Below, in pieces: positions 1 to 46,138 of a stretch of DNA of 64,000 bases. Under the pieces are notes generated by a model. It did no database searches and was not told where the DNA came from. It saw only the letters and a program-made list of their open reading frames with translations. How positions within the stretch are numbered: position 1 is the stretch's first letter; each line of letters begins with the position of its first letter. The stretch is from Trachythela sp. YZ-2020 (lineage: Eukaryota; Cnidaria; Anthozoa; Malacalcyonacea; Clavulariidae): contig JADLSH010000236.1 in NCBI GenBank assembly GCA_016169945.1, forward strand, positions 3,210,001 to 3,274,000, read 5' to 3'. The position numbers were made by a program, and so were the translations under genes.

Positions 1-1870
1 TTTCATCGAGTCTCATGAGCCCTGTATTCTATTAACTATGATTTTTGGTGTGCAGAAGAAATTAAGCAAAAAAGAAAATGTCAAAATGAACAAAGAAATT
101 ATAGGGAATCATGATAGCTATACTTCATTATTATCCATAATATCACTTATTATTATATGGCTTTATGAAATCCGCGGTTCTGATTGGCTAGCGAGCGGTC
201 CGATAAAAGCCGTATTCGGACCGTGGTCCGGATAAATAGTTATCCGGACCGGTGTCCCGGACTAAAAAATTAAAAATTTAAATTTAAAAAAATATATATT
301 TAAAAATATTTTTTTTACATATTTAAAAAATTTTTTAAATGAGGAAGCCATTTATTCTTGCGTAATCTCCCCTATATGGCCCCTCTATTCTTGCGTAATC
401 TCTATGGAAGAGCGAGCATTGCAAATATGGGCAGGTTTCTATAATTTTACAATGGAAATTATTTTCAACTGCTATATATCAATCTCATTTGAATCTAGAA
501 GCAAAGTAAGCCTTTAGTTTTAAATACTGCACGAATATCCTGCATTATTTTAATATGCTTTGATTTAGATAAAGTTCACTCATAAAAGTGTTAAAATCAC
601 GCCATTTGTATTCTCAACACTATTTGGATGAAATTGACAATACAATAGACCCCTTGCCTTGTTTACAAAGCCAGATACTGCTATTTAATAGAGGAAGGGG
701 CTGCGGCATTCAGCATGCAGTGCGTACATATAAATTATATCCCCTCCCCATGTTTTAACCCCTCCCCCCGACATAATTAATGAAGTAAATGAACACTCCC
801 TAAAATATTGTGCTGGGCTCTTATTTTCATTATAAGAATACGTTTCCTTCCCGGAAAATTTATATCGTAACAACCAATCAGAAAGATAATTATATATTCC
901 ACTAATCACAAACTACCCCGGAATATGAAAATATGAAGGACGGCGAGAACAAGCAACACTGCGGAGAACAAGCATAACGAGGGAAGAGCCTGGGAACGAG
1001 GTTGCAAGTGAATGGTTGATAACTGTAGATAAATCGGCAGGTCTAAAGTGCAGACTCTGCAGATCGAAAAATGCAGACCAGTTTTGGGATATTTTGAAAG
1101 TTATGGTCCGTTAAACACTGAATACTCGATTAAGGTCTAGTTTGGACGTCGAGCTTCGACGAAATAAATTACTTGGATAAAATGTGAACTTGTGCGTTGC
1201 CAATAAATGTTCACGTTGGTTAGAGCCAGGACTGAAGGGAAAATGTCGTGGGTTAAAACATCTTGAATTTTTGTATGTCTCATTCGTTAGATAGTTAAAG
1301 ATCATATTGTGCACCGTTTCGCAGGTTAACCCCAGTTGATAAGCCGTTGCGGCATAAAAACACCGTCCGTCAGTAGTAATACAGGTACCGATCAACCCTG
1401 TTTTTTGAGGCGGCATGAGCCGGTATGTGCCGGCGTGGGGCGGCGCACTTATTACCATATGAGGGTAGGCACATTAATTATGCAACTTGATCCTACCCCT
1501 TTGAGACCTCTCAACCCTCATTAATATGCAATGACGTCACAGAACAAGACCACTTCCGCGCTGAACAAGTATCTGCCTTTTTGCTTTAACACTTCTATTT
1601 TGGTTGGCTAGATCACTAATATCGTGCTTAAAAGGTCCAAGTTTGTCCATCGTCTCTTTTTTAAGTGTGTGTGAAGTGACATTTTTTTTCCATATTATTA
1701 CATAGAAAATGTGTTTGTGATGGTGAACTCAACAGAGCTTGCTGTTGAGCTGTTGAGAGTTACATAGAAGTTATATGAACGATCTGTGCTTGGGAAGATT
1801 AGTCATATCTGCTCGACGACCAACGTGATGAATATTGTATGGACAGACTATATTCTTATATATTTACTAC
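1..1870. other. No gene recognised
   Basis: AT-rich sequence with short ORFs on both strands. None shows a recognisable domain or a convincing splice-linked partner. The missing 3' exons of RNF121 were looked for here on the minus strand and not found. Confidence 0.6.
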
Positions 1871-1872
1871 TT

Positions 1873-2010
1873 CATGACTATAGACTATAGTCATAGTCAG
1901 TAGTCACAGTCAGTCATATAGTCACATCAGTCATATATAGTCATAGACTATAGTCATAGTCATAGTCATTGTCATTGTCATAGTCATGGACTATAGTCAT
2001 AATCATAGTA
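1873..2010. repeat. Simple repeat, TAGTCA-type
   Basis: Imperfect tandem iterations of TAGTCA/TATAGTCA with interruptions. Low complexity, non-coding. Confidence 0.8.
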
Positions 2011-2531
2011 GCACGGTTGTGGACCTGTTTTCGTTTATGACAAGTTATAACTGACAAGTATGGACAATGCACTTATCCATATACTTATAAACTATCGGTA
2101 CAGAAGTCTGGATATATTTTAAAGTTATAACTGACAAGTATATGGACCACTTACTCATACTTACAAACTCCTTATTGTCCAGGGAAGACACACATGCATA
2201 GATAGTCATAGGCATTTAAAAAGCGGAAAATCCGCCATCCGCTCTACAAGCTATACCATGAATGCACGCTCGTGATGCTGATAGGATTAACCTCCCATGA
2301 TGGGACCCCATCTATATTCATCCTGCAAATAATATTGGTAAATAGCGTGTGAAGTGGTTAACAGTTAGAACTGATAGAGCTAACCAGTATTAATAAAGTT
2401 ACCAAATCCTAATGAAATTAGTTGATAGTGTTTCCAATTTATTCGCTATTATTGCCGATATTAAAATTAAAATTTTGATTAGCAAAAACCCGAACACGCA
2501 ACGTTCCATGCTGTTAATATATATATATATA

Positions 2532-3129
2532 CCGGGTGGGGCAAAAACAAGTACGACTGTTTGATTTAGTATAACTTAAAAACTAAAAGAGCTATTACAC
2601 TAAATGCTTTGCATTCAGCCATGTCTAACGTAAATATTGATATGTGCCATGTGCATTTTCATATAATATTGACCGAGATAGCTGCGTTTAAACTTGAGTA
2701 AACATTTTTGGAAGTGTCGAGAATTAGCTAAAAATGGCCTATTAAATAATTTGATAACCATTAGCATTTTACGCAAGTATTCGTTTCAATGAAGTGAAGT
2801 TGAAGTTAGAAGGCCAAATGTTAGAATAAAAGAGGATATCTATTCAAGAAACATTTCTAACTTCAACTTCACTTCGTTTAAATAATATGGTAACGGTTAT
2901 CAAATTAGTTTAATAGGCCATTTTTAGCCAATTCTCGACAGTTCCAAAAGTGTTTAGTCAAGTTTAAACGCAGCTATCTCGGTCAATATTGCATGAAAAT
3001 GCACATGGCATATATCAAAATTTAAGTCAGACATCGCTGAATGCAAAGAAACTTGTTTAAGTGTAATAACTCCTTTAGTTTTTAAGTTATACTAAATCAA
3101 ACAGTCGTACTTTTTTTTGCCCCACCCGG
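2532..3129. mobile_element. Palindromic Tc1/mariner-type MITE
   Basis: The two ends are inverted copies beginning CCGGGTGGGGCAAAAA, and the similarity runs through most of the element, so it folds into a hairpin of about 280-bp arms. It is flanked by TA on both sides (2530-2531 and 3130-3131), the Tc1/mariner target duplication. The arms have drifted, so this is an old non-autonomous copy. The flanks are TA-rich, which weakens the TA duplication as evidence. Confidence 0.75.
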
Positions 3130-3179
3130 TATATATAAATATGTTTTGTCGAACGAGATGCTCCACAATTACGATTTTA

Positions 3180-3765
3180 GAATAAGCTAGCACTGTCCCT
3201 GAGGTACGAATAAGCTAGCACTGTCCCTGAGGTACGAATAAGCTAGCACTGTCCCTGAGGTACGAATAAGCTAGCACTGTCCCTGAGGTACGAATAAGCT
3301 AGCACTGTCCCTGAGGGTACGAATAAGCTAGCACTGTCCCTGAGGTACGAATAAGCTAGCACTGTCCCTGAGGTACGAATAAGCCAGCACTGTCCCTGAG
3401 GTACGAATAAGCTAGCACTGTCCCTGAGGTACGAATAAGCTAGCACTGTCCCTGAGGTACGAATAAGCTAGCACTGTCCCTGAGGTACGAATAAGCTAGC
3501 ACTGTCCCTGAGGTACGAATAAGCTAGCACTGTCCCTGAGGTACGAATAAGCTAGCACTGTCCCTGAGGTACGAATAAGCTAGCACTGTCCCTGAGGTAC
3601 GAATAAAGCACTGTCCCTGAGGTACGAATAAGCTAGCACTGTCCCTGAGGTACGAATAAGCTAGCACTGTCCCTGAGGTACGAATAAGCTAGCACTGTCC
3701 CTGAGGTACGAATAAGCTAGCACTGTCCCTGAGGTACGAATAAGCTAGCACTGTCCCTGAGGTAA
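3180..3765. repeat. 28-bp minisatellite, about 21 copies
   Basis: A 28-bp unit (starting AATAAGCTAGCACTGTCC and ending GAGGTACG) is repeated head to tail about 21 times. Copies are almost identical; visible variants are one extra G, one T-to-C change, and one copy with a short internal deletion. There are no spacers, so it is not a CRISPR. It lies in the RNF121 intron downstream of the RING exon. The ORF through it on the minus strand is a by-product of a unit length not divisible by three. Confidence 0.95.
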
Positions 3766-12690: not shown

Positions 12691-14002
12691 CAGTCAGTAC
12701 TATACTTGGGCAAAGTCACTAAACAAATCGAAACCCACTGACGTAGTTTTATTGGACTTTTCAAAAGCCTTCGACAGCGTACCTCATGAAAGATTGTTAC
12801 TCAAATTAGAACGCTATGGCATTGATGACTATGGCAAACAACGTGCCGCAATCCGAGGTACCTACTCGTCGTGGGCCCATGTCAAATCCGTGCGTGCCTC
12901 AAGGGACTATTCTAGGACCAATTTTGTTTCTAATTTACGTTAACGACATATTAACAAGTGCCACATCTCAAATCAAGTTGTATGCAGGTGATACCAAACT
13001 CTATCGAGAAATTAGCGACAAAACAATTGATGTACAAATATTACAGTTAGACTTGAGGCACCTCTACGATTGGTCCATGTCATGGCAATTACCTTTTAAT
13101 TTGAATAAGTGTGAAGTGATACGAATCACCCATGCGCATGACGGTTCTGTTCCGACTTATTCATTTGCAGGAACTTGCCTGGAATCAGTTGATCAAATTA
13201 AAGACCTCGGGGTAACCATCACGAAAGACCTCTCATGGAGCCAACACGTAGCCATAATCGTTAGCAAAGCAAACAAGGTACTGGGCATCATTAAACGAAC
13301 AGTTGGCCCAGTGGATAAACTAGTTTTCCCAATGCTTTACAAATCGCTTGTGAGGCCCATACTGGAATATGCCGTACCAGTTTGGTCTCCTCATTTGGTC
13401 AAAGATATACAAGCGCTCGAAAAAGTTCAAAGAAGAGCATCTAGAATCGTCCTCAGACAGAAAAGACAAGAAATGAGCTACGACGAAAGATGTAAAATAT
13501 TAAAATGGTCAAGTCTAGAGGAACGTAGACTTTATTTATCACTGATTGAATGTTACAAGACAGTTTTTAATATTCATAATTTGGACTTTGACACTTATTT
13601 TGAACTTGGTTCAAAACGTACTAGAGCGAATCATGACTACAAGCTATATGTCAAGCTTGCGAAATGTAACTCTTACAAATATTCATTTTTTGTAAGAATT
13701 ATTAATGAATGGAACAATCTGCATAAATATGTAGTAGAGGCAGGAAACTTCAATTTATTTAAATGTAGATTAAAATTATTTATGAAAATTTCTTAGCAAA
13801 TATTTATATAGATGCATGCATGTGTAGGTGTATGCCTCTGGGTGTATGCTATATGTTTGTACGTTTATGTGTTAGGAAATCGTTAAAATAGGGTTAACCT
13901 CTCAATTCTTCCTTTTCAAGGTGTGATAGAATGATAGATTTACACTATTTATTTATTTATGTAGTTGTAATATTTAATACTTTGAATAAATATCATGTAT
14001 GT
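12691..14002 (+). mobile_element. 5'-truncated LINE (CR1/L2-like) with 56-bp target duplication
   Basis: The segment is bounded by two copies of a 56-bp sequence (12635-12690 and 14003-14058; only about two differences), both starting ATGTCAGTCAATGTCAG. It begins inside the RT domain and ends with an ATGTATGT tail after the stop. CR1/L2-like LINEs are known to end in short tandem repeats and to be 5'-truncated. The near-identical flanks are best explained as a long target-site duplication. Confidence 0.85.
12752..13796 (+). pseudogene. LINE reverse transcriptase, 3' half, defective
   Basis: Starts MDFSKAFDSVPHERLLLKLE, the RT finger/palm region of CR1/L2-type LINEs, then shifts frame near 12840 and continues to 13796. 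The downstream frame has PQGTILGPILFLIYVNDI, the catalytic block changed to YAGD where YADD is expected, and the C-terminal region typical of these LINEs (LVRPILEYAVPVWSPH). The lost catalytic aspartate plus a frameshift means it is dead. The endonuclease and ORF1 are absent because of 5' truncation. Confidence 0.9.
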
Positions 14003-14744: not shown

Positions 14745-14825
14745 CAATCTCGTTCCCCGAGCCCGCGATCCTTCGAGAGAAGGAACGATTCTTCCAAAGG
14801 ATTGCAGGCTCGGGGAACGAGATTG
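14745..14825. repeat. Short hairpin, member of a dispersed family
   Basis: CAATCTCGTTCCCCGAGCC at the left end pairs with GGCTCGGGGAACGAGATTG at the right end. A related single arm (AAAGGATCGCAGGCTCG) occurs near 18585. Non-coding. Confidence 0.75.
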
Positions 14826-14988
14826 AGTGGTTAGGGCCAGAGGCAGAGGAGGAATGAGGGTCTTCCCGAAATGCAACGCGCGCCGGGGCGGTTTATCATA
14901 TATACTCAATTTCTCGGCCTGCTCCGTCATTGTTCGATTGTTGCTCGCTACGTTCACAACTCAGAGATTAAAAGTAAAATATTAAAAA

Positions 14989-16049
14989 ATGGCGAGTTTT
15001 CGCAGTATTACTGGGATGAAAGCTTCTGAATTAGATGGGCATGAACTTCTTTATGTTCATTGTGTGTCGAAAAACCCTGTGAATATGATCACAGATGGAT
15101 TACCGTGCGTTCAACTAGAATGCTGCGAGGTTCATATAAGTTTTATGGATAGTTTGGACATTCGACGAACAGCCCTTATTCCATCAGTTGTTAAAGGCAT
15201 AAAAATCGAAGAAATGTTCGCTCATTGTAGTAGCCCTGCATTGATAGAAGTGCATACCAGTTGCGTTTTCAAGGTGAGATGATTTAAACGCATGCTTTTA
15301 ATACTGTATATACATTTTGATTGAAATACATTTTGTATATTTCCAAAAAATAGAAACTTTAAAAACAGATAAGAAATACATACAATGTGTTTACAGTACA
15401 TAAATATCTTCGAATAAGAAAGGATTTAATCAGTAAAAATTGATTATAATATATAAATATACTTGATATAATTCAGGGCATAAAATATATTTTTTATTTG
15501 TTTTTTATATTAATATTAAACACGTCATTGTTAGACTGATATTTAAGTCCTTTACCTTGACTTTGTTATGTTCCTACTCAATGTGTTTCTTACTTCCATG
15601 TGTAGTTCCATGACCCCATTGAAATCAGGGATGGATGTGGCCGGCTATGTAATATTGTCATGTTGTGGGAGTTTGATATTTTACCATCACCAACATCCCA
15701 AGCAGTCCCTCCAGGTGACCTGGATATTCAAAATGATGAGCTGGATAATGTACTTCCACCAGTACCTTTAAACAAGCCAACTGAATGTAATTGTTTTAAA
15801 CAACTACTAAATCCTGTTTGTTTGGCAAATATTGATACACACCGAGTGGTACAGAACGAAGACCTGTCTAGTGGTGCTAGTGTTGGTGAAACTGAGGCAG
15901 TGAATGTAAATGAAGTTGAGGAAATTCAACAATTGACAGAAATTTTGGATGTGGAAAATACTGCCTTTGGTGATGAGGACAATAGTTCGGATGTTATATC
16001 TATGTATTCTGAAAAGTTTGTTGTTGTTGGATCTTGGCAAGAGAACTGA
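14989..16049 (+). CDS. Uncharacterised two-exon protein inside the TIR transposon (242 aa)
   Basis: Exon 1 is 14989-15273 (95 codons) ending in a GTGAGA donor; exon 2 is 15606-16049, after a TGTGTAG acceptor. The phases agree (0/0) and the joined frame is open, giving 242 residues. The start is the first ATG of the open frame, 145 bp from the left TIR. The N-terminal half is compact and Cys-containing (HELLYVHCVSKNPV, LPCVQLECCEVH); the exon junction falls in CVFK/FHDPIEIRDGCGRLC. The last 100 residues are acidic and probably disordered. No known domain recognised. It faces the Myb/SANT gene, whose stop lies 184 bp away. Possible roles are transposition accessory protein, diverged transposase part, or captured host gene; none can be chosen from sequence alone. 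Confidence 0.75.
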
Positions 16050-16232
16050 TACCAAGCGGCGCTCACAAGGTGCATGTGGAGAAGGTCATCAAACCTAGAG
16101 TTGACATTCAAAGCGGAACATGAACCAGACTCACAATGTTTGAGACACAAATGCATTGAAATTTTTAGTGTTTCACAATGACAACTGGCATATAATTGGC
16201 TATTATATTATATTACATTATATTATACTATT

Positions 16233-17473
16233 TTATATTATATTGGGTGGTATTCTTGGTGGTGGTGGGGGCGGCATTCTTGGTGTTGGTAGGGGTGCCG
16301 AGGTTGGTGGTGGTGCCGAGGTTGGTGGTGGTGCCGAGGTTGGTGGTGGTGCCAAGGATGGTGGTGGTGCCAAGGATGGTGGTGGTGCCGAGGGTGGTGG
16401 GAGTGCTGAGGGTGGTGGTGGTGCCAAGGGTGGTAGTGATGGGGTTGCTGAGGGTGGTGGTGGCCTCTTATCAATCACTAGTTCTGCTAAACTGTCAGAT
16501 AATGTCAAACCATAATGGATTTCAGCATCTTCCAATGTTGCAAACTTTTTCCTGTACACAACAGTTACTCGTGATCGCAGACGGCAATCTATATAAAAGG
16601 CATGAAAACAAGAATGAAGTAACATCATATCTATGATTGAATAATATTTAAAAAACATCCTTGATCTTACTCTTTTTATACTAAGGGCTTTCAAAATAAG
16701 CCGGCAGCCTGCTGGGTTACTTTGAGCTTTACCGCTGGCAACTGTGACCTGTTGGTCAAATTTTAGAACAATTTCAATAACAGACAACTGCCTGCTACTG
16801 TACATTACCGCCTGCTAATTTATTATCACAACAGTCTATATTGAACTAATTCTGAAATCCCTGTATATTTATATTAATGAATTAGACATCTAACAGTAGC
16901 ATTAACTTACTTGATAAGAGAATGTTAGAAGAAGTACCACATTTAATATGTTTGGCACCATCGTCCCAGAAACTGTTCTTTTTACCAAATGCTGGCCACT
17001 CTCCAACAGACATTTTTCCATATTTTGGATCTGTTTTGGCAATCACTATGAACTCAACAAATGCCTTGTCTTCCTCAAAGGTCCATTGATTAAATTTTAC
17101 TGGGGACTTCTTTGTAGGAGTAAGTTTCCTCTTTCTGGATATCTTTCTACTAGGAAACTACAAATAAAACCGATTCTACATTCAATTATTAAATACGAAA
17201 TAGCTTTCAGTTGAACAACAGTTGACACACTGTATTTATATTTATATAATTTATCTGTATATATATATACATGTACAGCAAGTGCTATAAATGAAACCTT
17301 TGTATAATTTTTACCTTTGGTGAACATTCCAGGACTCTGACACAAAGCTCGACTTGATGATGAATTCGTTTTCCCGGCGTATCTCCTTTAGAAATATATG
17401 CCCTCTTGGCAATATCATTTTCCTCATCAACAATGTCTATAATATTATAAACATCGCTGTCGTCAGATTCCAT
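16233..17473 (-). CDS. Myb/SANT-like protein with proline-rich tail, three exons (253 aa)
   Basis: Exons on the minus strand: 17315-17473, 16911-17157 and 16233-16588, all with GT-AG introns; total 762 bp, a whole number of codons. Exon 1 starts MESDDSDVYNIIDIVDEEND. Exon 2 carries a basic patch (RKISRKRKL) and a tryptophan-containing Myb/SANT-like helix region (FNQWTFEEDKAFVEFI, then MSVGEWPAFGKKNSFW), likely DNA binding. Exon 3 has a short conserved-looking block (VVYRKKFATLEDAEIHYGL) and ends in about 65 Pro/Ala/Ser residues encoded by a GGT/GGTGCC minisatellite. Myb/SANT proteins accompany transposases in Harbinger elements, but the 9-bp duplication here does not fit Harbinger. Probably the element's DNA-binding accessory factor. 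Confidence 0.8.
16250..16460. repeat. GGT-rich coding minisatellite
   Basis: 18-bp units of the type GGTGGTGGTGCCGAGGTT repeat across the 3' end of the Myb/SANT gene. On the minus strand they encode the APPP-type tail; open frames in other phases are by-products. Confidence 0.9.
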
Positions 17474-18135
17474 TTTTCCCCGAATTCTATAATAAAATAG
17501 AAAAATACAGTCAGTACAGTTAAATATATATTGCAGGTATTAAACAGGAGAATCAAAATATATAGCAACATATAAGCGTATGTTTCTAAATACAATATAA
17601 ATAGTGCATCATACACAAGATTCCCTCGCGCCATAATGATCACAACGCGGTCTATTCCCGCCATCTGGGTTAGAATACAGCAAAAATACCCCATTTTCAA
17701 ACCGCGATTACTCCTCGATTTAGTGGAGCTATTTAAGGTTTTAAAGTACCAATATAAAGAACAAAGCTTGCTGAATATGATGACGTGATTTTTTCCCCGT
17801 TTCTGTTTAAAAAAGCTAATTAGCTCCAGCATTGTTTCAAGGTCACTTTTGTGGCGTGTCCTCTGACCCGGAACAAGCATAAATACAATGCGTAATTAAC
17901 ATAACTAAAAAGAAATATCTATACCAAACAAGTCAAAAATAACTAAATTAGATACCTAAACAAAACAATTATTAAAACATACCTTCCAAAAAATCAGATC
18001 TTTAGGGATAAAATTCGCAATATATTTCAACAATTTTTCACCTAACTTTGTTGAAAATCGCAAATGTGAATATTAATGAGATGCAATGCATTTCGGGAAG
18101 ACCCTCATTCCTCCTCTGGGCCAGAGGGTTAGGGC

Positions 18136-18500
18136 CAGTGAGCTCTATATATATATATCTGGAGTGAGAACTTATGTCCAAAAAGTGAAGCCAAAGATGG
18201 CGGAAATTGACGTCCAGTGCCAATCCCTTTCTATTGTTTTCGACCGCGCGGTTTACACAAGCCGGCAAGGAGTGTGCCGAAATTTCGTGTTTTTACTCCG
18301 ATTTAAACAATAATATCATGATTTTATGAATTAATAACTTGATTAGCGATACGATCTGTTAGAAATTAGCTGGATAAAATGCTATGAAAACTGTTTATGA
18401 CCTTCATGAGTTTGGACGTCAATTGCCGCCATCTTGGCTTCACTTGGCCTATTGGCCGAACATTAGAAGTTCTTACTCCAGATATATATGGAGCTCACTG
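18136..18500. mobile_element. hAT MITE with 8-bp target duplication
   Basis: The ends are inverted repeats beginning CAGTGAGCTC, and pairing extends about 100 bp inward (including GGCGG and ATTGACGTCCA). It is flanked by perfect 8-bp direct repeats GTTAGGGC (18128-18135 and 18501-18508). CAGTG ends plus 8-bp duplications are diagnostic of hAT elements. It is inserted immediately beside the duplication of the 3.3-kb TIR transposon. No coding capacity. Confidence 0.92.
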
Positions 18501-18621
18501 GTTAGGGCCTGTTCACAGCCTCGTACCCAGGCGCTTTAAGGGAAAAAATCGCATTCAGCTTATGGCCTGTTCCAATTCTTCCCAAAGGATCGCAGGCTCG
18601 CGGGACGAGCCCAGGCCATAG

Positions 18622-19324
18622 CCAGGCTCTATTTGCCCGCGCCCGCCTGTGACTTCCTTATAACGAGGGAAGGAAGGAAACATTGAGACCAAAATAGCCC
18701 AGACTTGGCATATGTTACACGAAACTATCCTCGATTTTTCGCCTTTAAATGCATTTCTTTCGAGATTAATCGATATCCCCTGCAATAATGATACCGTACA
18801 ACTCTCAAAACAACGATGCTTTAATCAAAGAGCTTAAATTCGCTCTAAAATCCGTGAGGGAATGACAAAATTTGGCAAAAATATATCGCCGTGCCAGGTT
18901 TGCTGTTAAAAAACCGGAAGTCGTTGAACAACTCAAAATACACTCAAACCTGATTGGACAACGAATATCAACAAAATTTCAAATTTCAAAGTTGTCCAAT
19001 CAGGTTTGAGTGTTTTTGAGTTGTTCAACGACTTCCGGTTTTTCAACAGCAAACCTGGCACGCGGATATATTTTTGCCAAATTTTGTCATTCCGATTTTA
19101 GAGCGAATTTAAGCTCATTGATTAAAGCATCGTTGTTTTGAGAGTTGTACGGTATCATTATTGCAGGGGATATCGATTAATCTCGAAAGAAATGCATTTA
19201 AAGACCTTTAAAGGCGAAAAATCGAGGATAGTTTCGTGTAACTCTGGGCTATTTTGGTCTCAATGTTTCCTTTCTTCCCTCGTTATAAGGAAGTCACAGG
19301 CGGGCGCGGGCAAATAGAGCCTGG
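18622..19324. repeat. 700-bp near-perfect palindrome
   Basis: Two arms of about 335 bp, starting CCAGGCTCTATTTGCCCGCG and ending in its complement, face each other around a loop of about 28 bp near 18973. Differences between arms are few (single bases and one small indel of about 10 bp near 19200). No ORF of interest and no clear target duplication were seen. It may be a foldback MITE or a recent inverted duplication. Confidence 0.9.
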
Positions 19325-20272: not shown

Positions 20273-21807
20273 CTAGATGAAGGAGAGGCGCTCATTGATA
20301 CCATCAGGCTGAATGGTGCCAAGTTTAAAAATGAGACGCTTTTCTTGCTTCCGACGGGTATCATTGCCACCAATAATGGGATGAATGGCGCATATTTTCA
20401 TATAAGAAAAGGAGTGGTTGGCACTGTTGAAGTGCCTAGCAACCGGTTTGTTGTGCACATTGTTCTTAACATCACGCAAGTGTTCAGCAAACCTATCGCC
20501 TAAACGTCTTCCAGTCTCCCGATGTAGAGCAAGCCACATTTGCTGCAAGAGATGCAGTAAACGAGGTTGGAGGAGATGCACGTGAAACTGTGCTTGATGA
20601 CAAACTGAGATTTTGGAGCCGAAATACAGGTGGCGAGGTTTAAATGCTTACAAGTGTAGCACTTAGCACGACCACAGGAAACAGTGCCAGCTGGTGACAC
20701 AGAGTCCTGTCGCAGTGAGCTGTGCACTAGGGTTTCCCGGATGTTTTTACTGTGTCGAAAAGAGACTAGTGGGGTCTCGGAGAAAATGGAAGACATTGCA
20801 GGGTCATTTTTAAGTAGATTAAAATTCCGGCCAATGATGTCCCTTACTTTAAAATTGAAGGGATGAAAGGTTAAAACTAAAGGTACTTTTTGATTAGAAA
20901 TTGCAACCGAAGGTTCTCTTAAGGTGTCTGAACGGGGTATAAGGGAGGCCTTGTTAATGGCAGTATCTAAAAGGTGGGAAGGATAACCACGATTCACAAA
21001 AAAGCTTCTCATTTCTGAACATTTGGCATCGAAGTCGTCGTCTTCACTGCAGAGGCGACGAAGGCGTAAGAATTGAGAGTAAGGGATAGCAGTTTTAGTG
21101 TGCTTAGGATGACAGGATGAGAAGAGAAGATAGCTGTGGGAGTCAGTAGGCTTGTAAAAGACAGATGTGCTCAGCCTAGTACCATTGATAGAAATGAGAA
21201 TGTCTAGGAATGATACACTGGTCTCACTGATCTCCCATGTGAACTGAAGTGCTGGATGGAAATCATTAACAAAGTTAATGAAGTAATTCAGATCAGCACG
21301 CGAGCATGATGCAGTGCCTAAGCAATCATCATTGAACCGGCGATAGAAGTCAGGTGAGGGACCAGTGTATTGTTCGAAGATTTGTTTTTCCACATAACCA
21401 ACAAACAAATTGGCATAGTTGGGTCCCATTTGGGTACCCATGGCCACACCACTTATTTGTTGGTAATGCTCACCATCGAACGAGAAATTGTTCAAGATGA
21501 GCACTAACTCTGCCAAGCGTACCAAGGTGGTGGTAGATGGATCCTGAATTACCCTTTGGTCTAAAAAGTATTTTAGTGCTTGAAGGCCGTCTTGATGCGG
21601 GATGACAGTGTAAAGTGATTTGACATCCATGGTGAAAATGAATTTGTGTGGACCCTGAAAATTGATGTTGTCAAGAATTTTCAGGGCATGCTTGGTGTCC
21701 TTGATATAAGAAGGCAAGTTCTTAACCAAGGGCGCCATGATGTGATCGAGGTAGCTAGAGAGGAGTTCAGAACCATCATAATTAACAAGAACTATCATAA
21801 TTAACAA
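20273..21807 (-). CDS. Penelope-like reverse transcriptase plus GIY-YIG endonuclease
   Basis: A 435-residue frame (21807-20500) carries Penelope RT motifs: FTMDVKSLYTVIPHQDGL, GVAMGTQMGPNYANLFVGY and RRFNDDCLG (the DD pair in place of YADD), then SVSFLDILI. Near its end is a Cys-rich linker (CGRAKCYTCKHL) and the start of GIY-YIG (YCISCSKCGLLYIG). The domain continues in the next frame, from about 20518 to 20273 (GDRFAEHLRDV, KPVARHFNSANH). The switch falls at a three-base run (20518-20520), so one base may be missing. Penelope proteins use GIY-YIG to nick the target and prime reverse transcription. The start shown is where the frame opens; the true N terminus is missing. Confidence 0.9.
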
Positions 21808-21954
21808 CGTGTAAATAAGGAGTGTTTATAGACATTTTTACTCATATGCATGTTTTTACTCATATGCATTCAGTTTTTAACTGCAAAATTGGTATCTTTT
21901 GAATAAATTGAAAAAAATAAATTGAAAATAAACATAAAGAAGGTAGCACAAACC

Positions 21955-24242: not shown

Positions 24243-27064
24243 TCAGTGTCCAATGTTCTTTTTCACGTTAGTTGCAATATTTTTGTTGTTATAGGTGATG
24301 TTTGCTTGAACGGTTAGAAGAATTTCTTGCAGTTCTTCATCTGTCATTTCATCCAAAGGAACGACGTTGCCATGGCTTTCACTTTGATGAATGTCGAGCA
24401 ATGCTTGTATTATATGTTGTTTCATCAATAAAGATATCTTTTGCCCATTTTCATTGATAAAGAAGACGTTGGCATGCACCTTTTTTTGGCAGAAACGCAA
24501 TAACTGGATAAGGCCACATGCAGTGCATTTTATTGTCTTCCCGGCAGTATGGTGAACCATTGAGTTGGCGCATTTCTTGCAGGATAGGGTTCTGTGTGTT
24601 GCCAAAATCCCTTCTGGAGGGGAAGAAATGGTGAATTCTTTATAGGTATTGGCGAGATCATCATCAGGATTTGCAATAGTTTGGCTAACTTTAGAAATCT
24701 GGGTTTCCTTGTTTATGGTAATGTAAGGTTGGTTGTCGAATTCGCGCACAACTGATCTTGTCAACATGTATGTCTCCCCTGACTGAACTTTCTGGATATC
24801 ATTTTCCCAGAGAACTAAACGTATTGAGCCAGTTTCGTCAGTTAGCATGGTTTCTTGTTTCTTCAAATTTTTGCCTCTGACGTTTACGTATTCCGTTCCA
24901 CCCTGGAAGGTCAGTCGACCAAGAACAGTGATCGCTCTTCCGGGCCTAACTTCATTTACTTCCTTCACAGCGGTCGTCGTTGTGGTATAATCAAATTATT
25001 TTGCCGCAATGTCAAAAGTTATTTCAAACTCAGATGGATTATCAAGCTTCGTTCGCTTGTTTACGATGATTTCTTCTTCATTTGTTCGATGGTTAGATTT
25101 AAGTTGAAATTGACTTAGTTTTACTGGCGACGAGGCTTCGAAGCTTCTCTTAAACGTCTCATGTTTCTCTGGGGAGAAACAAACAGTTCTCACTGTGCGA
25201 TCTTCTGTCTGCATTTTCATGTCAAAATATGCGTTATTGTTTTGACTTTGCTTTACAGGCGACAGTTGATGGATGTAGCCAATAACAGGCATGTCTACGA
25301 ATAAAACAAAAGTCAAAGTTAACAAACCTTTGTGTCTTAGCTCTGAATTTGCACATCAGACAGTATGCAGCACATTTTATACGTCCAGGATATGCTGATA
25401 TATCAATCCAGCTGGTTGTAAATACGTTGCAGGGTGGAAAAATATTTTTCTTCGACCGTACAATGGTAGTATCAATTTGTAAATAACAAAGTCCTGCTGC
25501 GACTTAAAATATTTTCTGGGAACATAGAGAATTTTCTGGGACCAATGGCCGCATGGTCCGATACATTTGTACACCTGATACGTTAGTTTTGACTTTTTGA
25601 ATTTACAATATGAAGAGCATGCATTTAAGTTAAGAGTTATACACATTTACTTACTTTCGTTTAAGGCAGCTTTATTCTCGACAGCTCTACCTGTACGTGT
25701 TAAATTGCTCTGACCTTTAAAGTAATAAACTATGGTTAATAATTAACTAGGTTTGAATACAAGTGTTTCACATATAATGTAATTAAACCGCAATATATAA
25801 GTAGTTAGTTAACTGTAACTAAAAATAATAAAATTACTGTTTTTTGTGGATGTACATGTACTTACTTTCGTGAAAGATAATTTCATTCACAGCAGCTTTA
25901 TCTGATATAAAATTGCTCCGACCTTCAATGCAAGAAAAAGAGAATAAGTCAGTACTCTAGATCTTAATAAAGTGTATGAGTTTAAATCTGTAGTACAGGT
26001 AGTCAGAGCTTTTGTCGCAGCAGCTTTATTATCGACAGCTCTACCTCTACGTATTAAATTGCTCTGACCTTTAAAGTAATAAACTATGGTTAATAATAAA
26101 CTTGGTTTGAATACAAGTGTTTCAAATATAATGTAATTAAACCGCAATGTATAAGTAGTTAGTTAACTATAACTAAAGGTAATAAAATTACTGCTTTTTT
26201 TAGATGTACATGTACTTACTTTCGTGAAAGATAATTTCATTCACAGCAGCTTCATCTGATACAAAATTGCTCGGACCTTCAATGCAAGAAAAGAGAATAA
26301 GTCAATACTCTTAATAAAGTGTATGAGTTTAAATCTGTAGTACAGGTAGTTAGAGCTTTTGTCGTATAGGTACAGAAAAACTACATGTTTTGTAGCCACA
26401 GTACATAAATGATAATTTATGTTTATAATACTACCTTCTATTTTCTTCCATAGCAACTTCAGTTGTGAGGGCTGCATCTGGCGTAGATGCACCGTCAGCT
26501 GTAACAGCTCGTTCTTGGGTAAACGCGCCGTCAGTTGGGAGGGCTGCATCTGGCGTAGAGGTAACTTCTGGTGGTAGGGCTCCGTCTTGGGCAAGAGCAA
26601 CTTCAGTTGTGAGGGCCAGATCTAGTGTAGATGCAACTTCAGGTGTAACGGGGCTCCTTTGGTAGACGCAACTTCAGTTGTGAGGGCTGTATCTGGTGTA
26701 GATGCAACTTTAGGTGCTACGGCCGCAGCTGGTTTAGGTGTGCCTCGAGGTTTATTTCGCTTCTTATCAGTTTTGCTTTGCTTCGAGGTTACTATATGGT
26801 GAACATGGTTAATAAAGTTGATTTTAATGTGGTATACATTTTTATGTAGTTGTTTTGTTAATATACAGGAACAGGACCGACAAAAATTGCACTTTGACTT
26901 TTAGAACTTTAAAACTTATTAGAAAAGTTAGTATCATTGATTATACTCCATCTGTTATTAGTTTAATATGTGGCTATACGACTGTTAACAGTGTTGCACT
27001 TACCAGAAGCGTTCTTATTTGAGGAATACTGGATGGCCATGGGTTTTCCATTGTCTAAATCCAT
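24243..27064 (-). CDS. Helentron RPA-like single-strand-binding protein, multi-exon
   Basis: Exon 1 (27004-27064) encodes MDLDNGKPMAIQYSS and ends phase 1. Exon 2 (26435-26791) is Ala/Thr-rich and frameshifted once. Then come four short exons related to each other (26220-26276, a damaged one starting 26068, 25866-25922, 25655-25714); the intact ones are phase 1 at both ends. The last exon (24243-25294) joins in phase and starts NMPVIGYIHQLSPVKQSQNN, a typical Helentron RPA OB-fold start. It continues through a second OB region and a four-Cys zinc site (CKKC, CTAC). An in-frame stop lies at 24996-24998. The join from exon 2 to the first short exon is out of phase as read. The protein probably binds single-stranded DNA during rolling-circle transposition. 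Confidence 0.75.
25664..26345 (-). repeat. 354-bp tandem duplication creating extra RPA exons
   Basis: The stretch starting at CGACAGCTCTACCT (25679) repeats at 26033, an offset of 354 bp, with high identity through to GGTAGTNAGAGCTTTTGTCG. Each unit holds one exon of each of two short types, plus introns. Confidence 0.85.
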
Positions 27065-27172
27065 AAAAAAAAAACATATCAGTTGTGAAACATGTTAAAA
27101 ATGGACCAGGATGCCAATGGTCTCGAAATTTGAAGCTGTGTGAACATCTTACAGTATTGCTGTTGATAAACT

Positions 27173-28016
27173 CTAGTGCATCAATTGAAGACAAACAAAA
27201 ATTGGTTTATGGTCACTAAAGTATGACTCCAATGTGCCAGATGAATGAACAACATGTGGGATATTAGTATAAATATGATCTATGGAAGTTCTATTGTCTG
27301 TGGTAAATTGTGAGATCAATTGGGAGTATCCCCTACACTCAATCATGTTTCGCATTAAAGCTTTTCGCTCACTAGAGGGTTTCAATAAGTCAATATTAAA
27401 ATCTCCCAGGAGAATGGTTGGCTTGTTAACCAGTAATGTCATGTGAAGATAGTCTAATGCCTCTATGAGTTTGTGAAGCTTGACTTTCGACCTTGAACGG
27501 TAAATGCCAACAATATGCAGATTGGGAACAGGCTCGTTCACAACTGTCACAGAAATTTCCATGTTATTGTAGTTGTAACTAAAAGGTGGTACAAAGGTAA
27601 GCAAGTGTCGATTTAAGGTACGTAATTGTCCCATATGTCGTTCGAATATTATTTTCCAAATGAATATGATCATTTCTGAAAAGATCAAATCCATCAATTT
27701 TATACTCTTCATCTGTGTCTCGTGCACACAAAGCTGTTTCAACAAAGATACTTATGTCTGTTGCTTGAACATCAAAATCGTTTGAAATGTCCGAGATGTG
27801 AAGATGAAGTGACCTGACATTGTGAAATAGTATTTTTAACGTTTTTGTGTAGGAAACTGCTGTAAGATCTGGAACACATGGAACTAATTTACATTTAGAT
27901 CTCAGTCTGGCCATTTCTTCTTTAACTTTAGGATTAACTCTGATTTTGTTCTCACTTAAATTTAAAATGTGCAACTTGTCAATGTTTCTAACTCTACTAA
28001 GACCAACATAGTGCAT
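27173..28016 (-). pseudogene. Helentron AP-like endonuclease domain (C terminus of Rep-Hel)
   Basis: Begins in a helicase C-terminal motif (MHYVGLSRVRNIDKLHI), then an endonuclease/exonuclease/phosphatase domain: KILFHNVRSLHLHI, GDFNIDLLKP, SIDHIYTN and SDHKPIFV, which match the metal- and substrate-binding motifs of the APE family. Two overlapping frames (28016-27579 and 27745-27173) together cover it, so one frame change falls between about 27580 and 27745. A C-terminal endonuclease of this type separates Helentrons from canonical Helitrons. Confidence 0.88.
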
Positions 28017-29330
28017 GTGCTCTCTGGTTGAATTTGGAAATCAACAACTGCTTCATCAAGAGTGTCTCCTGACAACGATGAATTGTTTTTGCAGCAGCTG
28101 GCCTTAGAGGAACTGCCTTCGTAAGACTTTTACATTGGTACTTTTCCAATTTTAAATTGTCGAGTTATCTCTAATATTGGGGTCCAATGCCTTTGTACGT
28201 GTGTGTTATACAAGTGTGATTTTTCGTTACGACAATTCTGTCCAACATTAGGTTCTGAAAATAAAACCCATATAATACTGGGTCTACTTGAATTTAAAAC
28301 TCTGTAATCAATCTTACAAATTGTGCATTCACTGCCATTTGTCATTCCATCATTGACAGAAACGTTGGTGGTTAGATCGTATTTTGCAGATGTGGCAACT
28401 GAGAGAACGGAATGCAGCCCCATAGTTTTAGTGTGGAATCTGATGAGATCCTCTGTTTAAATTGCTGCTTCTTATCATCAGAAATATCGCCTACTACAAT
28501 ATCGACAGCTTCTATTTCTGCTTTATCATCATTACAACACGTAAACGTTTTGTTATTATGAGCAGCCACAGATTTATTAGTGGTAAACAAGTGTGTGACA
28601 TTTGAATTCCTACAGTTTGGTTGCAAGATTCTAGTTTTCAATTGTTCAATATCCTGTTGCGAATGGTGTCCGTCTCGAAGCCGAGTTAACAGTTCTGCAA
28701 ACTGTTTATCTTCTTTTGTCTCATTATTTGGGTTAGCTCATACATTTCAAAATACTCTTGCCAAACATTTAGAGCCAGTGGGCCATAATCCTTGTTGCTG
28801 TTTTCAAAAATCCATTTGTCAAAAACTGGTTGAAGCTGAAACAAATCCCCTACAGCAATGATACTTACACCTCCAAATGGCATTTTTGAACCCATGATCT
28901 GTTGCAAGCGTAAATTGACGAAGTTGAACATACCGCTGCCAACCATTGAAATCTCATCAATGAGTACAACTTTGAGTTTTCTTAGCTTAGATCAGATTGT
29001 ATTGAGTCTGTCATTGTCAAAGGTATATAGTGAAATCCTTTGTTCACAGGTAATTGAAGTCCAGAATGGACAGTGTTGCCTCTAATATTATAAGCAGCTT
29101 TCCCGGTTGGAGCAAGTTTAATGACTTTTGCTTCATCTGGATTCTCTCCAACAACATGGTTTAAATACTTTGTAACTGCTTCGTATAAAGCGTTAGTAAC
29201 CCAACTCTTTCCCACTCCAGCACCACCACTTAAAAGAGTGATAATTGATCATCGCTTACTTTGACAGAATGGAGTACATGATTGAAGAACTGCCTTTGCT
29301 CCTTATTTAGAGATCTGACCAGGTTCCTAA
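28017..29330 (-). pseudogene. Helentron PIF1-type helicase domain
   Basis: Walker A is visible as SGGAGVGKSWVTNALY near 29190-29240, followed by LAPTGKAAYNIRGNTVHSGL. In the next frame, motif II (IDEISM) and VGSGMFNFVNLRLQ precede GVSIIAVGDLFQLQPV and ELTQIMRQK (helicase motifs III-IV). After a further shift come TTNKSVAAHN and the C-terminal part that runs into the endonuclease. These are superfamily 1B PIF1-like motifs that unwind DNA in rolling-circle transposition. Breaks occur near 28985, 28690 and 28400. Confidence 0.88.
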
Positions 29331-30925
29331 AATCAGTATCATTCATTTGGTTAGTTGTCAACTCTACATTATTTGATCTAGGATAAATTCCAATATCATC
29401 CATCAGGTCATAGTGACTGTGATTTGTATTTTTTCCAGGATTAAAACAACCAAATAACTCACTAGCCTGTTTTTAGCAAGTTGGTCTTGTTCGTCTAGAT
29501 GTTGCGTATTAGGTGCAATAGCATCACATTGATTAGACTCAACTACAGGATTTTCTAAATCTTCTTTGTTTGATATTTCTTCAATCGCTTTGTCAAGAAT
29601 ATCAGACTGAAATTCAAATTGCTGGTTATTTTTCAAAATTAAACCTTCTAATGACTCATACATCTGCAAATAACTTTCACATGTTCCCAAAAGATCTTTG
29701 AGTTCATTTCTCCAAGGAGTGTAGAGCATGAGTTGCTCTCTATAATAATTTTCAGGATCCTTGACTTTGTTAAATCTTACAGAGCGAATGACTTTTGGTG
29801 TAGATCTTTTGACAAGTGTTAATCCTCCTTCAGCTGATACTCTTTTTGGTTAAGATCAATTGCTTCATTCTCAGAAAAATCATCATCAACATTAGGCTCA
29901 AAATCACATTCAGCTAAAAAGTCATTTTGAATCTTGTTTTTCTTAGTGTTTGACTGGTTTGATTTATGATGAACACAGTTATACCAAGCAGCAAACTCTG
30001 CTAAGCATACATGTTTCAACTGATTTGGTCTCCTTTGATATCGTTTAATGAAATTATCAGACTCAATATTTTGAGAATTATCTGGCAGTGCATTTATTTG
30101 TTCTTTTGATTTCAGTAAAAACGTTCTCTCTTCAGGGTTTGATGTATTAATGAACACAACATTACGCGACGATCGGCGCAAAGCCATTTGTAACACTAAA
30201 TAAACAGCCTCTTGAGCACTTATTTCAACAGAATTAAGAAATGTGTTCCCAATATGTCTAATCTGACTTAACAAAGCTTTATTACCTAATTTTGCTTCTT
30301 CACTAGCTTTTTCTAAAAGTTTGCTCATTCCTCTTTGCCCTTTTGTTATATATGACAAAATATAAACAGCACATGCATAGGATCTAATACATACTGTATA
30401 TCCATGTTTGCTCTCCAAGCTTTCAAAAGATCAACATTGTAACTATTAACACGTATTTCAGATGGTGATCTCTTAAGAAAAAGAGTGTCACGCTGTAGTG
30501 TATATTGTATAGCCTTTATATATTGATCATTTGTCAATAGCATTTCTTCAAGAAATTGTTGATAATTTTTCTGACTTCCATACTTCATGCCAGCAAGTTT
30601 ATCGACAACCAGAGCAGAATTAGCTTTTATTTCCTTAAGCTCTTTTCATCAAGGTCTTCTTTAGCTAAAGGTTGCAACACCATTGTTTCACGCATAGGTG
30701 GCATGGGGAAGTTGAATCTACAAGTGTTTTTTCCATTTTTTACATGTTTTGCATGTCTATGTAGTTGTAAGTTCAATAAATCTGCCTCAATGTCTTGAAC
30801 ATCATCACTACATGAAACATATTTTTCAACAAAGGAGGCTACTTCTGAGTGTGAGTTTTACCATATACAGGTGCATTTGTAACCCAAAATAATGCATGTA
30901 TGTGTGGAGAACCGCGTTGCTGAAA
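29331..30925 (-). pseudogene. Helentron HUH Rep nuclease, catalytic part
   Basis: The HUH motif reads [13 protein letters not shown] with HIH at 30896-30904; the catalytic Tyr region reads [14 protein letters not shown] near 30340-30375. The sequence between and after matches Helitron Rep (MALRRSSRNVVF), followed by a poorly conserved acidic linker to the helicase. HUH Rep cuts and joins single strands at the element ends. Frame changes fall at a seven-base A run on the plus strand (30937-30943), near 30958, near 30645 and at 30380-30381. With both HUH histidines and the tyrosine region kept, this may be intact in the real genome. Confidence 0.88.
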
Positions 30926-30926
30926 T

Positions 30927-32568
30927 TCAACCCTGTAAAAAAATCATGTATATCACCAATAGGTTATGCTCACCTTTAATAAAATTATTGATAAGCAAAT
31001 GAACCATGTGATCAAAGTGCCGGGCACATGTAACTGGATCATTTTGTATAAGCTCAGATTTTTTTTGCCATGTCATCTCTGTTATTTCTTGGTCACTGTA
31101 GTCCTTCCCTTCAACAATTCGACCTAACATTCTAAGTAAATGTGGCCATCTAGTCTCAGCTGCAGAAAACGAGCAAAACCATGTTGGTGTTCCAAGTTGT
31201 CTTATCATAGCAAACAAGTCCTTTTTGCATTTCTCAAAATATGGAGGGGATCCTCTAAGATTTCTCAAGACTCTAAATCCTTCATCAAGGTGCACTAGTT
31301 TTTGAATGGAGGCTTCTGATTTTAAATCACCTGCCTTATACTGTTTCCCTTTAGTTTTACATTTCCGAATGGCAATAGAAGCTGTATCTTGAATCCTCTT
31401 AATTTGGAGTTTTTTCAGTTTGTAAAATATATTAGGAACAGACTGTGCAACCCTTCTATCCCGACTCCGCATTTCCCATTTGCACACAGTACTATAGTGA
31501 ACTGGAACTAATCTGTCCTTGTTGTCAACTCTACGTTCTCCGCAAAAAATTGTTGGGAAAGACAAGTACTCGGAATCTTTATCAGTAAACAAACCTAATG
31601 GTTTATTATCCTCCCCAGGTGCAAAGTTAAACACTAATTCACTATCTTGAACTGTGTCAGGTTCAACTAGCAATGTATCCATTACTGGGGCCGGACGCTC
31701 TTCAATTTCACACCAGTTATCATCAGAATTATTGTCAGATGTTTTAGAACTAATAAAGCCTTTACTTCTGTTTTCAAAATCATGTTGCTTATTGTTATTG
31801 TTTACCTTATCCTTTTCATTCTCAAGGACAGGAGAAGAGGAGACAAGATCTTGATCAGTATCACTTTGGTCACCTTGTTCATTCATGTATTTGGGCTCAT
31901 ACAACAAATTGTTGCCCATTTTGTCTGTGTATGTATCAAGAAAAGCATCATTTACCTGTATACCTTCATTTATAAATAATTTGCTATTCTTTGCAAGATA
32001 TTGGGCAGCCATTAGCACCTTCATAGGCCGAATAGTCTGGAACCTGTAGTGGTGTTTATAACTAAGACGCCTCTTTAGTTTGACTGGAATGGTTTGTAAT
32101 TCATTCATTGATCTTGGTAAAACATTGACAGTCGAGTTTACATTTGCTGGGACATTTACAACATTCCCATGTATTTTAAATTGACCTCCTCTTGAAGTTC
32201 ATGAATTTGCATGAAAGGTATACGTGGAGAAATTAACCTTTCTTCAAGGGAGGTAAGATTTAGTAGGTCAGACTTTAGTGGGAATTTCATACCATTAGCC
32301 TTGAACATGCCGGTAACTTTCCATCTTTCAAGTTTGAGTGGCAAGTGCAACAAATCCATTCAATGTTGTCAAAACTTTTAACACAAGTAAGACAAAGCTT
32401 AAGAATATTCTCAGGACACATGTTATAAGAACTTGGTTTGCACATCTTTACAGATGTTCTGTACCATAACTGATCACAACATGTACAGATATACTCAGGA
32501 CCAGATTTAACAAGATCATGAAATGTCTGAATGTATTTTTGTCTCTCACTGACATCTGAATATTTCAT
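30927..32568 (-). pseudogene. Helentron Rep N-terminal region with zinc-finger-like motifs
   Basis: Starts at 32568 (MKYSDVSERQKYIQTFHDLV) with Cys pairs (YICTCCDQLWY, CLTCVKSFDNIEWICCTC), the zinc-finger-like DUF6570-type start of Helitron Rep-helicase proteins. Next is KFPLKSDLLNLTSLEERLISP and the long frame 32108-30927 (TIPVKLKRRLSYKHHY; FFAMI-like region; GTPTWFCSFSAAETRW). Frame changes lie near 32299 and 32195, both at two-base runs. It leads directly into the HUH region. Confidence 0.85.
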
Positions 32569-32603
32569 TTTTTGTGCATCATATTTAGTTTTTACATTCT
32601 AAT

Positions 32604-33817
32604 TCATGCTGTAGTTTCCGTGATTAAAACTGCATCTTTTCGCTTCATAGATTCTGTTTCAGTGCTCATGGAAGTTATTTGTTCTTTTGGACTTTCTAAC
32701 TTCTGTGCTTGTTCTACCTTGACTTTATTGGTGCTAGTATCTTGCCTTGTTTCTGGCTTGTTTGCAGAATACATTGTTGTAGAAACATAGTGAAGTTCAT
32801 CGATGTGCCCAATATGTATTTTAGTATACTTTGCTCCATGAGTAACTGGGTGAATAATAGTCGTTGCATTGAAATTGAGTGCAGACTCAGTAATATCAAT
32901 TATACAATTCAGGGCATCAGAAACGGCTTGAACTACAATCGCATCTGCCCATGTGCCATTCATCGACATACTATTAATATATGCAGAAAATGAGTTGTTT
33001 GCTATACTTTCGACAAACTGTTCTGGGTGACTTCTAATGTAATCTATAGCTGTTGAGCGCACAATTTGATGAAAGTTGGAATTTTGAAATAATTGATGAG
33101 AAACAGCCCTAAAAAAACAATTTCCATCACCACCAACATCAAAAGGTTTTAGACCTTTAGCAAATAGACGAGTTGATAGTGTCATCATACTTTGACTGAC
33201 TTCTTTATTTGAAGACAAGTTTATTTTTTTCTGACCTTGGCTAGTTGCAAAAGTTAAATCACTGGTTCCCTCAGAAACATCAAGCACAACATCATAGTGA
33301 ACCCCAGTTGAATTCTGTAGGTAAATCCCCATTTCACTAGACACAGGCAATCTATCTAACATGCTTCGAGAAAATTTAGACCATCTATAATTGTTACCAA
33401 ACTGTGAATAAACATAAATATCTACATTGAAAAGGGAAGTGGCTGCAAAAATTTCAATATCAGTCCCCCACACACCACTGTTCCTCATGTTGCTTGTGGC
33501 TAAATAATGATCTACTGAACTATTCATATGTGGTCTAAGGACATGTTCTATACTGTTCATGTGATCCACTATTTTTGTCTTAAAATCATGTGGTATGTTT
33601 GTCTTCCGGTTAAAAAATATGACAGTGCTCTAAATAAACAATTGCCATCCCCTGTAATCCGACACAGTTTCGTTGGATTAACTAGTGGTTTTGATGTTGT
33701 TTCATTGCGTCTAAATATAAGTGGGACATTCATCAATGAGCATAAGGACAGCTGAAATTCTCCTGATAGAGGATAAAAACGAAGCGATCTATCGATACAC
33801 TGCTGAGACTCGTCCAT
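32604..33817 (-). pseudogene. Helentron tandem OTU cysteine-protease domains
   Basis: The first OTU begins LCRITGDGNCLFRALSYFL (catalytic D-G-N-C) in the frame starting MDESQQCIDRSLRFYPL. After a one-base frame change near 33575 it continues to GVHYDVVLD, with the catalytic His. A second OTU follows: GGDGNCFFRAVSHQLFQN, then ELHYVSTTM. So two complete OTU modules with both Cys and His are present in a row before the Rep region. OTU proteases cleave ubiquitin-like modifiers; one domain is common in Helentrons, the tandem arrangement is less familiar to me. Confidence 0.85.
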
Positions 33818-37800: not shown

Positions 37801-37972
37801 GGTAGCAGTTATTATCAAACCATTTCTGCTTTGGTATTGAGTTCGTTTCTGTCTTTTTCTGTAATTGTAAACCACTGTTATTTGTTATTATTCATTTTAA
37901 TCAACCCGTTGAAGACTGCAGACTGGCAGCCGAAAGCTCGTAAATAATAAATATTTTAAACCAGAGAACGTT
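34889..37972. mobile_element. Hairpin (foldback) element split by a LINE insertion
   Basis: Left arm 34889-35112; right arm 35145-35261 plus 37866-37972; loop 35113-35144. Joined, the right arm is the near-perfect complement of the left over about 224 bp. The LINE at 35262-37860 interrupts the right arm, with GTAAT repeated at both junctions (35257-35261 and 37861-37865). The arms contain a motif GAAGACTGCAGACTGGCAGC followed by CGAAAGC, resembling a degraded hammerhead. A 12-bp direct repeat AGATTAGTAATC near 34830 and 37982 may be the target duplication of the outer element. Confidence 0.85.
35262..37860 (-). pseudogene. 5'-truncated LINE reverse transcriptase
   Basis: On the minus strand coding runs from the 5' truncation at 37860 to a stop at 35406. 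Motifs include FPKIWSEGLITPIHKSGNKS, CFVDFRKAYDSVWREGLFFK, KQGCNLSPTLFNLFIND and LLYADDLVIM (catalytic YADD intact), ending in a Cys/His cluster (CTVCQSNEIGDEFHYLMSC). There is one frame change near 36822 and one in-frame TGA at a conserved Trp near 36285. The 3' end after the stop is AATAAAGATTATTATT. 5' truncation and a short GTAAT duplication are normal for target-primed insertion. No endonuclease region is present. Confidence 0.88.
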
Positions 37973-45607: not shown

Positions 45608-46138
45608 TTACGCAGCAAACCCATACCGATCAGGCGCATGGACATCTTGCCTGAGATTCCTAGGCCTAACCCGAGGGACATGTGGCGCATTTTCGCAATT
45701 AGGTTGAACGTTGTTTGCGGGAACATTGTAAACCACCTGATCGCCCCCAATTTCTCGCGCAGGGCAGACAATGTCTCCACAGTTTAATGGTGCATAACCA
45801 CGCTTCAATCGATCATGATGTACCACCGTAATCTTACCTTCGATCGATTTGATTTTATAATCAACGCCTAACCGACAAACAACTTCAAACGGCCCGATCC
45901 ACTTGGCCCCAAATTTCCATCCTTTTGGTCTACGCAAGTAAACTGTTTCACCTGACCCGAATGGGCGCCACTTTTGCATTCTCTCTTCATTACCTTTCAT
46001 TTGTTTCTCCCTTGCTCTCTCTAAGTTTACCTTTGCTACCTCTCTCACCTCCTTAAATATCTTCCTAAGAGACTGTGTGTATTCGGATTGTGTGCTAGGG
46101 TCTTTCAGTGGGAGGCCTAGCTCTAATTCTAAGGGCAA
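45608..46138 (-). CDS. Gypsy integrase C-terminal part
   Basis: Overlaps the integrase core frame by a few codons and carries GETVYLRRPKGWKFGAKWIG, PFEVVCRLGVDYKIKS and HHDRLKRGYAPL, a GPY/F-like C-terminal integrase module that helps bind DNA. It continues the core in a different frame; the change falls at a four-base run (46154-46157). Ends at 45608, about 100 bp before the LTR. Confidence 0.85.
   Translation of the reverse strand: MPLELELGLPLKDPSTQSEYTQSLRKIFKEVREVAKVNLERAREKQMKGNEERMQKWRPFGSGETVYLRRPKGWKFGAKWIGPFEVVCRLGVDYKIKSIEGKITVVHHDRLKRGYAPLNCGDIVCPAREIGGDQVVYNVPANNVQPNCENAPHVPRVRPRNLRQDVHAPDRYGFAA

Follow-up and report, generated by a model that had tools for sequence, protein, structure and literature searches.

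A short transposon copy in the anthozoan Trachythela sp. YZ-2020 as a probable deletion derivative of a long two-gene element with a P-like transposase and a HIRAN-like partner

The analysis of a 64,000-nucleotide stretch of the Trachythela sp. YZ-2020 genome (the window) suggests, with a probability of about 0.86, that the unit at positions 14844..18118 is a non-autonomous copy, shortened by an internal deletion, of a two-gene cut-and-paste transposon of 10-14 kb that encodes a P-like transposase and a HIRAN-like partner. This reading rests on the ends of the element, its target site duplication (TSD), the long copies in the same genome and the homology of both genes, together with predicted protein folds.

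The element is delimited by perfect 32-bp terminal inverted repeats (TIRs), the left one (14844..14875, + strand, beginning CAGAGG) being complementary to the right one (18087..18118, - strand) at 32/32 positions, and the 9-bp sequence GGCCAGAGG is duplicated outside them, at 14835..14843 and 18119..18127 (no strand). Both features had been claimed in the original prediction and are borne out. Used as a query against its own genome (578 Mb, with the window on G000:C96), the element gave at least 95 matches, the first 8 of them nearly full-length, and its right-end 269 bp was found in at least 40 places, the window among them, in addition to a 36-bp fragment (lower bounds, the best 40 of 1119 and the best 40 of 670 candidates having been scored, respectively). 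Among 16 TIR-bounded copies from this one genome, the window's own among them, the 9-bp TSD is repeated at 9/9 positions in 12 (L001-L006, L011, L013, L016, L017, L020 and C197), at 8/9 in C354 and at 7/9 in L019, and is missing from L007 and L008; read in an 8-bp register, the repeat reaches at most 5/8 in every copy examined (n = 16). Twelve perfect duplications in 16 TIR-bounded copies place the unit and its 9-bp TSD far beyond chance.

The genome was searched for longer copies with the same TIRs, a check proposed with the original prediction, and the two that were read carry longer forms of both genes: C354:827148-837576 (10,429 bp; TIRs present, duplication 8/9) and C197:2418099-2432011 (13,913 bp; ATTCAGCCT duplicated at its two flanks). 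The 32 bp of the left TIR are near-identical at both ends of C197 (at most 4 mismatches) and are recovered at both ends of C354 when up to 7 mismatches are allowed. Against C354, the window element matches at 92-95% over its positions 1-1287 and 1402-3274, and against the left end of C197 at 92.4% over positions 1-1361; C197 was read at L054, L055 and L033, the rest being known through matches alone. The C197 match stops at window position 16204, and the matches to C354 and C197 (L033) resume at 16244-16246. These matches indicate that the window copy arose by an internal deletion that removed approximately 7.2-10.6 kb between breakpoints close to 16204 and 16245, where an AT-rich filler (16205..16243, no strand) marks the junction. 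Thus, the label of a complete small transposon does not hold, because both open reading frames (ORFs) are incomplete; indeed, about 7.2 kb (relative to C354) or 10.6 kb (relative to C197) of the interior is absent.

The long copies are themselves unequally preserved, with gene A exon 2 open through the HIRAN-like part in C197, and with gene A lacking the HIRAN stretch and a stop in one gene B exon in C354. A late catalytic exon lies within 10 kb of at least 4 of the 40 right-end places (C354, C197, C147 and C82), as judged by eye from the right-end and catalytic-exon lists, among the matches listed. Furthermore, the two genes are convergent, with gene A at the same end, in all 8 copies in which parts of both were read (L009, L010, L011, L015, L016, L018, C354 and C197).

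The long copies also bear on the possibility that the window holds a non-autonomous MULE or Merlin element. A 9-bp TSD would fit such an origin, and P0024, a Paramuricea clavata gene model homologous to the SANT part of gene B, contains a Mutator fragment, albeit below the Pfam cut-off. P0024, however, combines this fragment with a piece of the SANT exon and other sequence and is probably an annotation artefact made of unrelated pieces, whereas the protein family encoded by long copies with these TIRs lacks a Pfam Mutator match and has a model that matches the P transposase. No Mutator family was matched by Pfam at E≤10 in five C354 ORFs or in 15 homologues, and neither of the two long copies read is a MULE or Merlin element devoid of both genes. 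An assignment based on TSD length was accordingly rejected, the long copies deciding otherwise, and we regard a MULE or Merlin origin as very improbable.

Gene B, on the - strand, comprises exon 1 (17315..17473), which holds the transposase start and carries indels relative to the long copies, exon 2 (16911..17157), which codes for a predicted Myb/SANT-like DNA-binding domain, and the 3'-truncated exon 3 (16233..16588), in which the 253-aa spliced ORF (17473-17315, 17157-16911, 16588-16233; two introns with GT/AG sites) ends. Within exon 3, an 18-bp tandem repeat (family D1; 16251..16477, - strand) codes for a Pro-rich linker also present in C354, P0034 and P0036, and in C354, C301 and homologues the coding sequence goes on to ...RMPFGLVEYQIEFFS.... 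The 253-aa protein has 19 homologues at E≤1 among 61 candidates, many of which continue into a conserved region beyond the linker. Its N-terminus (aa 17-172) is 44% identical (77/175 columns) to that of Oculina P0053, where the SANT N-terminus is followed by the initial portion of the transposase core. In C354, the gene B exons follow the order of the protein, SANT part first and C-terminus last, and Lineus P0038 (from residue 275) and Oculina P0053 (residues 2-787 of 804) are collinear with them, each uniting SANT and core in one protein. For exon 3, the median dN/dS is 0.139 (range 0-0.89; 218 pairs with dS of 0.05-2, from 256 pairs sharing at least 70 codons, at the 25 of 30 loci with a stop-free match). 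Collectively, these data identify the 253-aa protein as the N-terminal, SANT-like part of a P-element-like transposase. The reading frame and GT/AG sites claimed for this gene are real, but they belong to the start of a much longer one; and the four introns proposed come down to three predicted ones (one in gene A, two in gene B). Pfam gave no match for either window ORF (242 and 253 aa).

A composite of the gene B exons retrieved 22 homologues at E≤0.01 among 4166 candidates (best 2.1e-207) in a search that admits only proteins of approximately 439-1396 aa. These come from Lineus, Branchiostoma, Actinostola, Amphiura, Oculina and Porites, are 468-1223 aa long and are named in their sources 'uncharacterized', 'hypothetical' or by a number (Hypp6614). 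The predicted core of gene B resembles the RNase H fold of the P-transposase type, and the family model matches the P-element transposase. The P superfamily is described as having the catalytic signature D, D, [C/D](2)H, E (PMC8230255). The gene B family would fit this pattern with D107, D330, D486-x2-H489 and E662, conserved in 15/15, 14/15, 14/14 and 13/13 members and located at predicted beta1, beta4, after beta5 and in an alpha helix, respectively. Alignment of the sequences to P supports the second-D segment only: 1 of 4 pieces aligned to canonical P with some support, and neither hhalign of the whole core against one canonical P transposase of the same genome nor hmmsearch gave a match. 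Foldseek alone listed neither a P nor a HIRAN match among its best 50 rows, a sequence search of the PDB returned nothing credible, and Pfam found weak unrelated matches for only one of five C354 ORFs. At E≤10, the 15 members together match 18 Pfam families, none of them THAP (some members having no N-terminus), and Myb_DNA-bind_4 appears below the Pfam cut-off in 2 of the 15. The same genome also contains at least 150 matches to canonical P-type transposases (PF21787; L053), several with open frames of 600-900 aa.

The P-element transposase is structurally distinctive, and its relatives without THAP are, to our knowledge, little known. Compared with P, gene B has a SANT-like N-terminus in place of THAP, about 150 extra, mostly helical residues between the first and second D, and 156 rather than 36 residues between the second D and D(2)H, and shows no significant whole-core sequence match; the long element, at 10-14 kb, carries a second gene. 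In P, a GTP-binding insertion domain sits between beta5 and alpha4; the predicted core of gene B has a helical stretch of approximately 170 residues between D(2)H and E. The TIRs are alike, 32 bp and perfect here against 31 bp in P, whereas the TSD is 9 bp here and 8 bp in the Drosophila P element and its THAP9/Pdre2 relatives (for P, 8 bp and 31 bp are the values given in PMC7776569). P has 11-bp subterminal inverted repeats; in scans for exact words in the outer 400 bp beyond the TIRs, the element showed no 9-12 bp word common to both ends and no 10-mer repeated within an end.

Gene A, on the + strand, consists of exon 1 (14989..15273; 95 aa), the end of which, with the GT donor after it, is kept in four divergent copies, an intron (15274..15605) with donor GT and acceptor AG in 15/15 copies compared, and exon 2 (15606..16049), stopped early by the TGA at 16047-16049 that ends the 242-aa spliced ORF (14989-15273 + 15606-16049). 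Homologues and C197 read on past this stop. In the window, a decayed and frameshifted remnant of HIRAN-like coding follows (16050..16204, + strand), recovered by tblastn of P0004, which matched 15663-16133 and 16126-16203 in differing frames, and ending where the C197 match ends. Of 144 candidate proteins, 18 are homologous to the 242-aa protein at E≤1 (14 below 1e-3), and most of these extend beyond its stop, where a conserved stretch follows; in a few (P0012, P0013) the similarity or the protein itself ends sooner. Here too, the frame and the GT/AG intron of the original prediction stand, but the ORF ends early relative to the homologous coding. The full gene A product is predicted to be a partner protein of approximately 360 aa that carries a HIRAN-like domain at its C-terminus; the 242-aa protein represents a truncated form of it. 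Matches to Pfam HIRAN (PF08797) are weak, being present in 7 of 13 gene A members with a best E of 0.039; P0004 scores 13.0 bits, below the curated cut-off of 24.7, and C197 gene A has no match at E≤0.5. A search of IMG/VR viral contigs with one pattern confirmed no gene A relative.

It is conceivable, though we consider it rather unlikely, that gene A is a captured HIRAN-like passenger with no role in transposition. None of its 18 matches carries an organism name, whereas the transposase matches come from named species of four phyla, which would suit a passenger, with the proviso that the two protein searches admit different lengths. Against this, exon 1 of the window copy is 60-63% identical at the amino acid level to four divergent copies, with a dN/dS of 0.19-0.24 and the same splice donor, and the convergent arrangement with gene A at the same end recurs in eight copies. 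Among near-identical copies, dN/dS of gene A scatters around 1 where defined (0 to 2.06 for the HIRAN part), so no selection is evident on the HIRAN part.

With gene A taken as a functional partner, a long copy would make a transposase with a SANT-like N-terminus and a P-element-like RNase H core, the latter enlarged by a long helical insertion and a further insertion domain. The SANT part may bind the ends and the P-like core, presumably through its DDE residues, cut and join them, giving rise to the 9-bp duplications, while the HIRAN partner might hold the single-stranded 3' ends released on excision. P cleavage leaves 17-nt 3' single-stranded ends (PMC7776569), and the HIRAN domain of HLTF binds single-stranded DNA with a preference for replication forks, recognition of 3' ends having been reported by others (PMC4666394). 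Unlike HLTF, gene A has no visible SNF2 helicase part, and its Pfam HIRAN matches are weak. Short copies would arise by internal deletion and, since they keep both ends but have lost the catalytic exons together with most of the HIRAN part, would be mobilised in trans by the long-copy transposase. The early TGA and the AT-rich junction are common to 8/8 aligned full copies, which show 97.1-99.8% identity to one another, indicating that the shortened form multiplied as such. Of the two options originally proposed, a gene-carrying non-autonomous derivative thus fits the shared truncation and the existence of long copies.

The other option, an undescribed two-protein system, was right in a changed form, in that the long copies encode a P-like transposase and a HIRAN-type partner, but the window proteins are truncated. 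It is hardly credible that the two proteins of the window element form a working transposition system that does without a DDE enzyme. Both spliced ORFs are open in the window copy, but both stop early relative to their homologues, and long copies that share its ends encode a P-like core; moreover, among 12 short copies of the window form (exons mapped by pairwise alignment; the other derivatives L016 and L011 excluded), the gene A frame (242/251 aa) is open in 4 (L001, L002, L004 and L017), and that of gene B in 2 (L001 and, with no stop in the mapped exons, L005), counts in which some of the many small indels may be assembly errors. A functional small two-gene element was rejected on the truncations.

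A further possibility is that the short copy owes its retention to repression of the full transposase by its SANT fragment, much as KP, which retains its DNA-binding domain, represses P elements; speculatively, the fragment would compete for transposase sites. Like KP, the window copy is an internal deletion leaving a fragment predicted to retain DNA binding and to have lost catalysis, and the near-identity of the derivative across 8 full copies is compatible with retention. Nevertheless, the gene B frame, open in so few short copies, gives no sign of maintenance, and the ends alone suffice for amplification. Unlike KP, a 207-aa repressor from a deleted P element (PMC7776569), the fragment has a frame that is poorly kept among copies, and we judge retention by repression improbable. 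Internal deletion followed by mobilisation in trans, which we favour, illustrates how such elements breed non-autonomous families.

Tentatively, and with less than even odds, the long elements may represent a separate, undescribed animal transposon superfamily that split from P long ago, with a SANT-led P-like transposase and a HIRAN protein holding 3' single-stranded ends, present in cnidarians, nemerteans, echinoderms and amphioxus. We found no description of an element that combines a predicted P-like fold with another kind of DNA-binding N-terminus and an additional partner gene. In the open-licence PMC literature, no paper linked the HIRAN domain with a DNA transposon; a query for HIRAN and transposase, in titles and abstract starts, returned none about transposons; and for a SANT-led P-like group nothing appeared there among the matches listed, although prior cataloguing (Repbase, Dfam, subscription papers) is possible. 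A SANT-led relative in Cnidaria, Nemertea, Echinodermata and Chordata would make the P-like group broader and account for gene models that now stand as orphans in the genomes of marine invertebrates; it would also allow a test of whether a HIRAN protein aids a transposase of the P kind, with its 17-nt 3' ends. PIF/Harbinger and Nuwa (PHIS) elements likewise pair a DDE transposase with Myb/SANT; in Nuwa, however, Myb/SANT is encoded by a separate ORF, whereas gene B joins SANT and transposase in one protein, and PHIS elements have TSDs of 2-3 bp or none, against 9 bp here (PMC4482050, for Nuwa and PHIS).

Finally, other repeats and transposon-like sequences lie around the element. A small MITE-like unit with inverted ends (18135-18501) adjoins it, and copy L002 (TSD TATCTGGAG) is inserted in sequence resembling this unit. 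A 28-bp repeat, 89% identical between its two copies, flanks the element (14794-14821 and 18582-18609) and is perhaps part of an older surrounding repeat unit, and an imperfect large palindrome lies at 18622-19324 (main arms of 80-110 bp, 96-99% complementary). ORFs matching RVT_1 are found at 12810-13796 (+), 36806-37891 (-) and 20500-21825 (-), the last below the Pfam cut-off. Farther along, an LTR retrotransposon, which we take to be Gypsy-like, occupies 46129-47625 (-) within an ORF array at 45608-50481 (RT RNase H, Integrase_H2C2 and rve; one ORF scanned), and a Helitron-like element, presumably of the Helentron type, extends over 24243-33629 (-), with matches to OTU protease (E 2.2e-26), Helitron_like_N (E 2.9e-14) and DUF6570 (E 1.3e-7) and a weak OB-fold.
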